DNA of 64,000 nt from Planococcus donghaensis (GTDB taxonomy: Bacteria; Bacillota; Bacilli; Bacillales_A; Planococcaceae), in NCBI RefSeq assembly GCF_001687665.2, contig NZ_CP016543.2, positions 3,241,372 to 3,305,371 of the forward strand. The letters are read 5' to 3'. A program made the position numbers and the translations under genes. Shown here in pieces: positions 25,365 through 28,983 of this stretch; the stretch's first letter is position 1, and each line of letters opens with the position of its first letter. The notes below the pieces were generated by a model. The model did not search any database. It saw only the letters and a program-made list of their open reading frames with translations, and had not been told where the DNA came from.

Positions 25365-27695
25365 TCACTTCGCTACTACTTCAACTGTTTCTAGTACTAC
25401 CGAAAAATTATCATTCGATTGTTTAACATCCCATTCCGTACGATCAAGTAAGGACGCTATTTGATCTACAGGTACAGGACGACTGAAATAATAACCTTGT
25501 GCTAAATCGCAACCTTCTGACTTAAAGTAGTTGTATTGCTCTAAAGTTTCTACCCCTTCAGCAACAGATTTCAAATCCAGTTTTTGTGCCAAACTAATGA
25601 TGGTAGAAATAATAGAAGTGGTTTTTTTGTTTTTAGATAAATTTCTAATAAAGGATTGATCAATTTTTATCGAATCGATTGGAAGATCCTTTAAATAAGA
25701 TAAAGAAGAATAACCCGTTCCGAAATCATCAATCGAGATTCGAATTCCTAAGTCTTTCAACTTATTCATCGTGATTATCATGGATTCCGTATTTTCCAAG
25801 AACACACTTTCCGTCAGTTCAAGTTCCAATATGTTTGGATCTAACCCAGTTTCTTGAAGAACTCGTTCAACAGTATCCACAATATCGCTATTTACAAACT
25901 GCTTGATCGACAAATTCACAGCAATATGGAAAGGACGGCCATACGTATCGTTCCATTCCACGGCCTGTTTACATGCCGTTCTCAACACCCATTCTCCGAT
26001 TGGAATGATTAATCCCGTTTCTTCTGCAATTGGAATAAATCGATCGGGTGGGATGACTCCCCATTCTGGATGAATCCAGCGAATAAGTGCTTCTGCCCCA
26101 TACATAAGCCCTGTTTTCGGGTCTATTTGAGGCTGATAATACATCACTAGTTCATTATTACCTAAAGCATTATGAAGGTGCTCTTCAAGTCCAACTCGTT
26201 CCTCAAACGAAGTGTTCATCGAATTGGTAAAGAATTTGTAGTTGTTGCCTCCCAATACTTTGCTGTTATACATAGCAATATCCGAATTTTTTATCAAAGC
26301 TTCTATATTCTCACCATCAGATGGATAAAAGCTAATACCAATACTCGACCTCAAATACAATTCATGCTGGTCGATGAAAATCGGCTTTCTAATTTCTTCC
26401 AAAATTCTCTCTACAACCCGAGAAACTTCAGCTTTTTCTCTTTCTAGCAATATGACAGTAAATTCATCTCCGCCTATGCGAGAGACTATATCACCTCTAG
26501 AAACACAACTAATTAATCGTTTCGCAATTTGCTGCAAGAGTTTATCACCAACAGCATGACCGCGAGTATCATTTACCATTTTGAACTTATCTAAGTCAAT
26601 AAATAATACCGCAATTTCTTGATCTAATTCCACAAAACTTTTTAGTTTCTCAGTAAAATGGAGTCGATTAGGGAGACCTGTTAATGTGTCATGGTAAGCT
26701 AAATAAGTACTCTTCTCTTCGGCTTTTTTACGATCAGTAATATCCTGGATGGCACAAATGGAAATATTCTGTCCTTCTCTTTCTACAAAATTTACATTGA
26801 TTAAAGTAGAAATGATATGCCCATCTTTATTGACTAACTCTGCTTCAAAGTTATTAATAGGAACTCTTTTTAAAAAACCTTTAAGCAAAGTCATCCGACG
26901 TCGCTCTGAAGTTGCTAATAAGTCGATTAAATACTGTGGTTTTTTTCCAAAAAGTTCATTGGAGGCAGGATTGGTTTCTAAAATTTGATGGTCTTCTTTA
27001 GCAACGATAATGGGTACCGATACTAAGTTGAACATATTATTTAGAAACTCGCCTTTGTCCCGATTTTCTGCTTCTGCAATTCGTCTCAACTTATTTTGAA
27101 AAAAGGTTTTACGGTTTGCTCGCTCCATAATATTTCCACCTGCTACACAAGTAACCAAAAGCACCCAAAGAAGCAATGAGAGTATCCCAATTTCCTTTGT
27201 ACCAATTAAGGCAATCTGGTAAATAGAAACATAAAGAAGAGTAGTCAAAACAGCAATTTTAAACCTCAACCTTAAAATAAAAAATGAAAACAAACTAACT
27301 ATAACGATTCCACAAATTGCTAAAATGCTATTTTCTAATATAATATGACCAACAACAACGACACTTAATCCAGCAAGTCCATTAGAAACTGCCGTCATTA
27401 ATTGATAATACTTTCCAAAGCGGTTAGTATTTAAAACGATTAAATTCAGAGTAAACACTGGATACAATACAAGAACTATTACTTGAATAATTTGCGTAAA
27501 ATGTTGCTGTATACTCATATACGAAAATATGCCTAAACTAAGCCACGCTAAGTAGGATAAGACAATCCCGATTTTGTTAAACAGACGTACTTCGCTATCA
27601 TTGAAAGATTTAAACTCTTTCTCTAATGTTCGATCCCGAAAACTTAAAGTCAATGGATGAAAAGACAATTCAAGCTGGCCTCTACTATTATCCAT
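25365..27695 (-). CDS. Membrane PAS-GGDEF-EAL protein encoded with an oxoamine synthase
   Basis: 776 residues. Six or so hydrophobic helices (about 40-195) form a membrane sensor that I could not place in a named family. PAS (about 215-325), GGDEF (SRIGGDEF, about 407) and EAL follow. The EAL catalytic set is intact (EALIRW, NLSIKQF, ELTESVF, DDFGTGYSSL, KIDQSFI, AEGVET). An RxxD inhibitory site is not present (SRGD at that position). It starts four bases after the stop of the PLP-enzyme gene, so the two are coupled. The sensor may respond to that enzyme's product (inference only). Confidence 0.88.
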   Translation of the reverse strand: MDNSRGQLELSFHPLTLSFRDRTLEKEFKSFNDSEVRLFNKIGIVLSYLAWLSLGIFSYMSIQQHFTQIIQVIVLVLYPVFTLNLIVLNTNRFGKYYQLMTAVSNGLAGLSVVVVGHIILENSILAICGIVIVSLFSFFILRLRFKIAVLTTLLYVSIYQIALIGTKEIGILSLLLWVLLVTCVAGGNIMERANRKTFFQNKLRRIAEAENRDKGEFLNNMFNLVSVPIIVAKEDHQILETNPASNELFGKKPQYLIDLLATSERRRMTLLKGFLKRVPINNFEAELVNKDGHIISTLINVNFVEREGQNISICAIQDITDRKKAEEKSTYLAYHDTLTGLPNRLHFTEKLKSFVELDQEIAVLFIDLDKFKMVNDTRGHAVGDKLLQQIAKRLISCVSRGDIVSRIGGDEFTVILLEREKAEVSRVVERILEEIRKPIFIDQHELYLRSSIGISFYPSDGENIEALIKNSDIAMYNSKVLGGNNYKFFTNSMNTSFEERVGLEEHLHNALGNNELVMYYQPQIDPKTGLMYGAEALIRWIHPEWGVIPPDRFIPIAEETGLIIPIGEWVLRTACKQAVEWNDTYGRPFHIAVNLSIKQFVNSDIVDTVERVLQETGLDPNILELELTESVFLENTESMIITMNKLKDLGIRISIDDFGTGYSSLSYLKDLPIDSIKIDQSFIRNLSKNKKTTSIISTIISLAQKLDLKSVAEGVETLEQYNYFKSEGCDLAQGYYFSRPVPVDQIASLLDRTEWDVKQSNDNFSVVLETVEVVAK

Positions 27696-27699
27696 AACT

Positions 27700-28983
27700 T
27701 CACATAACTCTATGCATATCTAATTGTTTAATTTCTTCCGTATTAACCTGATGTCTACGACAAATCTCTTCTAAAGCATTGACTGTATAATCAATTTGCT
27801 CTTTGCTGTGATTATAATTGACGATTAATCGGATTCTTCCTTGATTCATTTTTACAGCGGGAAAGACAATCGGAGTCGAGTAAACACCAACGAGATAAAG
27901 ATCATTAACAACTAATCTTAGTTTATTGTGATCTTCGATAAACACTGGAATAATTGGACTTTTGCTTGTACCAAGGTCAAACCCTTTAGATATCAATGAA
28001 TTTCGCATATAAGTATTTTTAGCATGTAGTTCAGTTATTAATGAAGGGTTGTTCTCTATTTCTTCTAGCGCAGCTAAAATAACTGCAGCATCTACAGGTG
28101 TTAAGCATGCTTGAAATAAATAGGCATCGGAAAACCTTAGCAACGAGCAATACTTCTTATCTGCTGCAAGAAAGCCTCCAACAGAAGCTGTCGCTTTAGA
28201 TAAAGTAGACATAATGAAATCAACTTTTTCACTTACCCCTTGTTCAAAGCAATAGCCTCGCCCTTTGTCTCCATAAATACCAAATGTATGTGCTTCGTCT
28301 ACATACAAATAAAATTTATGTTGCTGTTTCAAATTTGTTATTTCTTTGAGTGGAGCTAAATCCCCGCTCATTGAATACGCTGATTCGACGATGACAAATA
28401 TGTTTTCAAATGAGTCCTCATACCTTGTCAATTTCTTTTCAAGATCGGCAACATCATTATGTTTAAAAGAAATTGTTCTTTTAGCATTGGATAATCTTAT
28501 ACCATTAATAATAGATGAATGGCTTTCACGATCAAAAAGAATCAAGTCCTTACTTCCCACCAACATTGAAATAGCACCCAAGTTTGCAGTAAAGCCTGTT
28601 GGAAATAGAACTGCGCTTTCTTTTCCTGTCATGTCACTTATTTTCTGTTCTATTTTTTTATGCAAAGTTGTCATTCCACAAGAAGATGCAGAAGTCCCAG
28701 CGCCAGTACCAAACTGACTTAAAGCGCGGGTAGCTTTTTCAATTACGTTCTTATTACGGTTTAAACTAAGGTAATGATTTACATTCCATAAAACGCATTC
28801 TTTTATTTCACCGGATTGTTCTGTTATGACATTCATCAAAGTCGCAGGACCATTTTCCAAATATCGATCATATTCATTATCTACTTCAACAAAACCATGA
28901 AGCGTTTTAGCTCTTTCTTCAAGATCAGTAATACCTTTTAAATACGTAAGAACTTCTCCAATCGTAACAAATTCATTTGTCAT
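27700..28983 (-). CDS. PLP-dependent alpha-oxoamine synthase-like enzyme (KBL/SPT/CqsA superfamily)
   Basis: 427 residues. Fold-type I PLP enzyme with the alpha-oxoamine synthase signature: GTGAGTSASSCG, LFPTGFTANLGAIS, YVDEAHTFGIYG, and the PLP lysine in STLSKATASVGGF. The family condenses an amino acid with an acyl-CoA (glycine C-acetyltransferase, BioF, serine palmitoyltransferase, CqsA autoinducer synthase). No threonine dehydrogenase or biotin genes are nearby, so KBL or BioF roles are not supported. Its sole partner is a membrane c-di-GMP enzyme. The promoter is about 80 bases upstream. Substrate unknown. Confidence 0.8.
   Translation of the reverse strand: MTNEFVTIGEVLTYLKGITDLEERAKTLHGFVEVDNEYDRYLENGPATLMNVITEQSGEIKECVLWNVNHYLSLNRNKNVIEKATRALSQFGTGAGTSASSCGMTTLHKKIEQKISDMTGKESAVLFPTGFTANLGAISMLVGSKDLILFDRESHSSIINGIRLSNAKRTISFKHNDVADLEKKLTRYEDSFENIFVIVESAYSMSGDLAPLKEITNLKQQHKFYLYVDEAHTFGIYGDKGRGYCFEQGVSEKVDFIMSTLSKATASVGGFLAADKKYCSLLRFSDAYLFQACLTPVDAAVILAALEEIENNPSLITELHAKNTYMRNSLISKGFDLGTSKSPIIPVFIEDHNKLRLVVNDLYLVGVYSTPIVFPAVKMNQGRIRLIVNYNHSKEQIDYTVNALEEICRRHQVNTEEIKQLDMHRVM

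Follow-up and report, generated by a model that had tools for sequence, protein, structure and literature searches.

An alpha-oxoamine synthase paired with a six-helix membrane protein of cyclic di-GMP turnover in Planococcus donghaensis: evidence that points to an undescribed signalling system

Why should a pyridoxal phosphate (PLP)-dependent alpha-oxoamine synthase be encoded immediately ahead of a membrane protein of cyclic diguanosine monophosphate (c-di-GMP) turnover, as is found in a 64,000-nucleotide stretch of Planococcus donghaensis DNA (contig NZ_CP016543.2; hereafter the window)? An earlier reading of the letters of this stretch (the sequence-only reading) had proposed, by analogy to CqsA/CqsS, that the enzyme makes a small molecule sensed by the membrane domain of its partner, and this signal-receptor idea stands as the best, though unproven, reading. 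The gene pair and the varied c-di-GMP links of the synthase relatives together point to an undescribed bacterial signalling system. A probability of about one half is given to the operon being a synthase-receptor signalling module that resembles the diffusible signal factor (DSF) systems, with a lipid-type aminoketone as its signal and c-di-GMP feedback on synthesis.

The gene pair and its recurrence across genomes

The two open reading frames lie on the minus strand where the sequence-only reading had placed them, and the spacing of 4 bases between them bears out the two-gene operon that it had claimed. The genes and the domains of their products are as follows.

27700..28983, minus strand: PLP-dependent alpha-oxoamine synthase, assigned to a separate c-di-GMP-linked family, 427 amino acids (open reading frame, Pfam, NCBIfam and tree)
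25365..27695, minus strand: six-transmembrane-helix (6TM)-PAS-GGDEF-EAL protein, second gene of the operon, 776 amino acids (open reading frame and Pfam)
27024..27632, minus strand: predicted six-helix membrane domain plus signalling helix, residues 22-224 (AlphaFold2 model; fold like the membrane domains of ImcA and adenylyl cyclases)
26733..27017, minus strand: PAS-like domain, residues 227-321 (weak Pfam match, PAS_9, below cut-off)
26244..26699, minus strand: GGDEF domain, residues 333-484 (Pfam; GGDEF motif intact)
25476..26183, minus strand: EAL domain, residues 505-740 (Pfam; EAL and DDFGTG motifs intact)

The architecture claimed earlier for the partner holds for the EAL and GGDEF domains found by Pfam and for the six helices of the AlphaFold2 model (residues 22-224), which are joined by loops of 1-5 residues, with the PAS part weakly matched; the synthase itself matches Aminotran_1_2. 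On structure comparison the predicted 6TM fold matches the membrane domains of ImcA and of adenylyl cyclases, and the latter have been reported as lipid receptors (PMC11606603, PMC12505454). At the sequence level a 6TM profile finds no match among PDB chains up to an E-value of 10, and its matches in Pfam are scattered and weak, each to a single one of 11 members.

The synthase-6TM pairing is conserved and specific, beyond chance, and recurs beyond one strain and one family. In six genomes read directly the 6TM gene immediately follows the synthase gene; three Planococcus genomes and a Cohnella carry the GGDEF-EAL form, and a Desulfosporosinus and genome G721 carry a hybrid kinase instead (loci L003 and L086 are one contig). 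At both kinase-type loci the next gene encodes a REC-HD-GYP protein with LHDVGK and HHEKxxGSGYP-type motifs. A 6TM profile and the synthase pick out identical sets of genomes, 3 of 261 in the Planococcus family and 2 of 73 in the Desulfosporosinus order, a five-of-five co-occurrence whose naive probability of 3e-11 is overstated because the three Planococcus genomes are related. Among 120 synthase relatives listed from the protein database (1,906 further matches lie beyond these), 23 clusters share the exact size of their longest contig with a 6TM protein, at 22 sizes, 7 with GGDEF-EAL proteins and 15 with kinases, as compared to a mean of 0.19 and a maximum of 2 coincidences in a control with shifted sizes.

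Two database searches with the N-terminal part of the partner yielded 60 such sensors, of which 14 are GGDEF-EAL proteins and 46 hybrid kinases; P0134 (GGDEF-EAL) is counted though listed without its membrane part, and P0141-P0143, dissimilar multi-PAS kinases, are excluded. Such searches reach proteins of limited length with shared words, so that other outputs could escape, and within this scope just two outputs were found, GGDEF-EAL in Bacilli and a hybrid histidine kinase chiefly in Clostridia. In the 6TM GGDEF-EAL proteins the GGDEF and EAL motifs, as expected of active enzymes, are intact in 14/14 and DDFGTG in 13/14; the kinases have HisKA, HATPase and REC in 46/46 and Hpt in 45/46. The 6TM domain is the sole sensor part common to both outputs: the kinase form has no listed PAS domain, and in P0133 the 6TM domain is joined to GGDEF without PAS. 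The loci read are in Gram-positive hosts, though one 6TM kinase from the database (P0177) comes from Ignavibacteriales.

Two further observations concern individual contigs. In Desulfosporosinus a gene for a GGDEF protein (L005, 13850-15007) follows that for the HD-GYP regulator, so that c-di-GMP synthesis and breakdown may be encoded together there. A plain synthase (P0035), a GGDEF-fused synthase (P0072) and a 6TM kinase (P0145) all share a longest-contig size of 11,047 bases; this may be a single contig that carries two synthases, or a coincidence.

The synthase family and its links to c-di-GMP

The synthase has the features of the alpha-oxoamine synthase superfamily, namely a fold-type I PLP enzyme with the catalytic Lys, DExH and substrate-binding Arg, and its active-site residues are conserved. 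Its closest database record is from P. halocryophilus HM12 2 (98% identity). With none of the NCBIfam models that it matches does its score reach the cut-off (bits/cut-off): serine palmitoyltransferase (SPT) 318/640, 316/500 and 217/670; bioF 308/426; KBL 297/460 and 248/493; the BioF/Kbl subfamily 285/535; ALAS 253/339; and the CqsA/LqsA model NF005526 196/428, on which a true member reaches 584. In a tree that has long branches outside the two clades concerned, the window synthase lies inside a separate clade of 32 rows (support 100/99), and seven rows of the alpha-hydroxyketone type form another (100/100). The motif GTGxGT[SA][AP] is present in 117/120 of the listed relatives and the SPT-type GxGxxGSR in 0/120. 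On these comparisons the synthase is placed in a clade of its own, apart from CqsA/LqsA, KBL, BioF, SPT and ALAS.

That the enzyme is an ordinary amino-acid or biotin enzyme of the KBL/BioF type, a neighbour of a c-di-GMP gene by chance, would agree with its superfamily and with the names of some public records, in which relatives are labelled 8-amino-7-oxononanoate synthase or glycine C-acetyltransferase. This explanation is strongly disfavoured, and its probability very small, on the basis of the family cut-offs, the separate clade and the recurrent pairing; the firm grouping with KBL/BioF that would have spoken against the sequence-only reading was not seen. Furthermore, there is no threonine dehydrogenase nearby, and another oxoamine synthase, encoded in this genome outside the window (G000:C1:2712398-2713465, L002), scores 638 bits with the BioF/Kbl subfamily model TIGR01825, above its cut-off. 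As for the structural comparison with CqsA, KBL and SPT that had been suggested, the superfamily fold and catalytic residues agree, SPT and KBL are tied among the best matches (51), and CqsA is lower (43.4), a difference that does not decide the function.

Among proteins of solved structure SPT is nearest to the synthase in sequence, and this, with the SPT structural match that ties with KBL, is in keeping with an intracellular lipid thermostat, i.e. a product that remains in the membrane, where the 6TM domain gauges its level and adjusts surface behaviour with no cell-to-cell signal. The very short loops of the modelled domain, which has no extracytoplasmic part, imply an in-membrane ligand. 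Such an arrangement is considered improbable; no other lipid-assembly gene was recognised in the neighbourhoods, where most neighbours were judged by eye.

All ten genomes found to have a close synthase (at least 56% identity) are c-di-GMP-linked, six by an adjacent 6TM gene, three by a PilZ fusion and one by a riboswitch; these were drawn from samples of 261, 398, 10, 73, 71 and 148 that overlap in centre genomes, and G657-G659 were first reached through the search that gave the closest synthase record. Five forms of the link are observed: the GGDEF-EAL partner, the kinase with HD-GYP, the GGDEF fusion, the PilZ fusion and the riboswitch. The usual mark of a c-di-GMP receptor is a GGDEF domain that has degenerated but retains its I-site, and 11/120 listed synthases carry a C-terminal GGDEF domain in which the RxxD I-site is present in 11/11 and an intact GG[DE]EF in 0/11. 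An N-terminal PilZ domain is found on 3/120 listed synthases, and PilZ-fused synthases occur also in three genomes of one class (L006, L100, L101), all above the Pfam cut-off. The PilZ motifs RxxxR and [DN]xSxxG are discerned by eye in 3/3 and 2/3 of the database fusions, respectively. In genome G470, whose synthase has 65-67% identity, a c-di-GMP-I riboswitch (L088 9149-9231, contig G470:C60; 73.2 bits against a cut-off of 35, E 1.7e-14) lies 114 bases upstream of the synthase start codon with a terminator hairpin in between; the contig has one other c-di-GMP-I riboswitch only. The terminator forms in both computed folds, which leaves the ON and OFF senses unseparated. It thus appears from these domain and riboswitch matches that c-di-GMP also acts on the synthase itself in relatives, a point that the sequence-only reading had not raised. 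Searches found no c-di-GMP riboswitch upstream of the window operon or of the Desulfosporosinus and G721 operons, and no match reached the gathering score in L004, L087, L006, L100, L101, L092, L093, L003 or L086.

The fusions and the riboswitch all put c-di-GMP upstream of the synthase, and this is what would be expected if the enzyme made a structural or protective lipid whose synthesis c-di-GMP switches on or off, with the 6TM protein reading a different cue, from the membrane or the environment, and controlling the enzyme via local c-di-GMP rather than binding its product. Such one-way control of a lipid enzyme is the main rival of the signalling module, although less probable than it. ImcA, which shares the 6TM fold, is inhibited by a protein partner, IsmP, according to PMC10904736, and hence lends one-way control some further support. 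What it leaves unexplained is the confinement of the 6TM domain to synthase genomes in the two samples, which speaks against it without excluding it, and the replacement of GGDEF-EAL by a phosphorelay and HD-GYP while the 6TM domain stays constant; moreover, the window synthase has by Pfam no domain that binds c-di-GMP.

Relatives were also sought farther afield. A search of 296 Bacteroidota genomes at E 1e-100, which had no positive control, gave no close synthase; a remoter relative that bears the name Maribacter exists (P0097). In a viral collection a scan with P0047 found no relative and no relative was confirmed with the 6TM profile; a profile scan found viral contigs (L125-L204; 80 of 104 kept) that encode oxoamine synthases with 28-34% identity to its query.

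A DSF-like module and how it compares with known systems

In the synthase-receptor module favoured here, the enzyme would join an amino acid and an acyl thioester into a lipid-like aminoketone, a product type suggested because of the synthase superfamily. The product, perhaps further reduced, would be sensed within the membrane by the 6TM domain, which would alter c-di-GMP turnover directly through GGDEF-EAL in Bacilli, and elsewhere through a 6TM-HisKA-REC-REC-Hpt phosphorelay to a REC-HD-GYP phosphodiesterase. There would also be an action of c-di-GMP, in several lineages, on the synthase gene through the c-di-GMP-I riboswitch, or on the enzyme through PilZ or a degenerate GGDEF with kept I-site; the fusions and the riboswitch make such feedback on synthesis probable. 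The product is proposed as the 6TM ligand because of the DSF analogy together with the constancy of a 6TM fold that is reported elsewhere as a lipid receptor. What the analysis shows is the gene pairing, the restriction of the 6TM module to synthase genomes in two samples, the intact c-di-GMP motifs and the riboswitch match; the product, its binding as ligand, the direction of regulation and any exit of the signal from the cell are inferred. The wider proposal, of lipid signalling in Gram-positive and other bacteria with an aminoketone signal, an adenylyl-cyclase-type 6TM receptor, interchangeable c-di-GMP outputs and c-di-GMP feedback, is held tentatively, at somewhat less than even odds.

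PMC4504480 describes DSF systems, which perceive a fatty acid as signal and respond with altered c-di-GMP turnover, in two layouts: RpfF with the multi-helix hybrid kinase RpfC (HK-REC-Hpt) and the HD-GYP regulator RpfG, or RpfF with the PAS-GGDEF-EAL protein RpfR. In architecture, which is all that is compared, the gene layout seen here matches these Rpf systems better than CqsA/CqsS, since the synthase is likewise encoded either with a hybrid kinase and REC-HD-GYP or with a PAS-GGDEF-EAL protein, with c-di-GMP as the output. The oxoamine synthase would take the place of RpfF in a scheme like RpfF-RpfC-RpfG and RpfF-RpfR. However, RpfF is a crotonase, unlike the PLP-dependent synthase of the pair (no search was made for an RpfF encoded elsewhere), and one 6TM module serves both forms here, whereas RpfC has five transmembrane helices and RpfR is soluble. 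With CqsA/CqsS and LqsA/LqsS the system shares a superfamily enzyme encoded beside a multi-helix membrane sensor and, in the Clostridial form, a kinase output; it differs in its synthase clade, in a membrane domain without detectable homology, in an output that is HD-GYP or GGDEF-EAL rather than the other receiver-domain regulator of comparison locus L110, and in its Gram-positive hosts, the Ignavibacteriales kinase excepted. With ImcA and membrane adenylyl cyclases it shares the predicted 6TM fold and a nucleotide second-messenger output, but not a detectable sequence match in PDB, and here a dedicated synthase neighbour is a candidate source of ligand. With SPT, KBL, BioF and ALAS it shares the fold and catalytic residues of the synthase, and differs in the family scores and glycine-rich motif given above.

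Several results weigh against this module. Membership of the synthase in the CqsA/LqsA clade was rejected by the tree and the NF005526 score. The 6TM domain showed, at the available sensitivity, no homology to the membrane part of the kinases encoded next to CqsA/LqsA (hhalign probability 0.2% with five comparison rows only), distant homology being possible. The parallel drawn by the sequence-only reading to CqsA/CqsS survives in part, in the same 6TM domain on hybrid kinases beside the synthase in other lineages; it fails in clade, and homology of the membrane domains was not detected. No 6TM gene was found on the 131.5-kb synthase contig of G470, to which that search was limited, or in the stretches read around the PilZ-fused forms. 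Two plasmid-borne outliers (L092 and L093, 46-48% identity) have no c-di-GMP gene among annotated neighbours. Among the 120 listed relatives 106 are unfused, and the neighbourhoods of few of these were read. Finally, the c-di-GMP links also fit simple c-di-GMP control over a lipid enzyme. As to the outliers themselves, they sit on one Rhizobium and one Photobacterium plasmid, and L093 also has a CRISPR-repeat-like match.

If the module is correct, it would represent a lipid-type signalling, seen chiefly in Gram-positives, that resembles DSF but employs another enzyme chemistry and another receptor, and a 6TM domain of the cyclase type would gain a ligand synthase of its own, assigned to it by genetics. 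A dedicated synthase adjoining such a domain makes directly testable the open question of a receptor role, and of its ligands, for the 6TM anchors of membrane cyclases. The recurrent c-di-GMP links also place an oxoamine synthase family, partly labelled as biotin or threonine enzymes in public records, in c-di-GMP biology. No paper on this synthase-6TM-c-di-GMP system was found in the literature searched, which omits most subscription journals and all bioRxiv preprints.

Surroundings of the operon

Two features flank the pair.

29059..29086, minus strand: candidate promoter TTGAAT-16-TACAAT (promoter scan and comparison of three Planococcus genomes)
25283..25326, minus strand: intrinsic terminator, 18-pair stem with T-tail (terminator scan)

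The terminator that had been claimed after the pair is present as such, its onset (25326) lying 38 bases past the stop codon of the GGDEF-EAL gene. The claimed promoter fares less evenly: the scan gave 16 promoter-like sites against 17.8 expected from shuffles, so that the candidate is unremarkable by the scan alone, but its hexamers are identical across three Planococcus genomes inside a conserved block (G105 differs at one spacer base). Its -10 element ends 75 bases upstream of the synthase start. The operon neighbours encode, by Pfam, a cytidine-deaminase-like protein, a DUF4317 protein and a nucleoside hydrolase. No biotin or threonine-degradation gene was recognised among the open reading frames of 20000-34000, several judged by eye only, in agreement with the earlier claim that KBL or biotin partner genes are missing nearby. 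A zinc dehydrogenase 2.4 kb upstream (31376-32593) was rejected as a threonine dehydrogenase, the KBL partner (112 bits against a cut-off of 380), and is, with 756 bits on TIGR02819 (cut-off 637), a formaldehyde dehydrogenase of the glutathione-independent type; an open reading frame with the N-terminus of this enzyme occupies the corresponding position in G086 and G105.

Three near-repeats of TACRATAGYRYTA are located on the minus strand at 29031-29043, 29052-29064 and 29063-29075, at or just past the candidate -10 element. They sit in the block strongly conserved among the three Planococcus genomes and look like the operator of some regulator.

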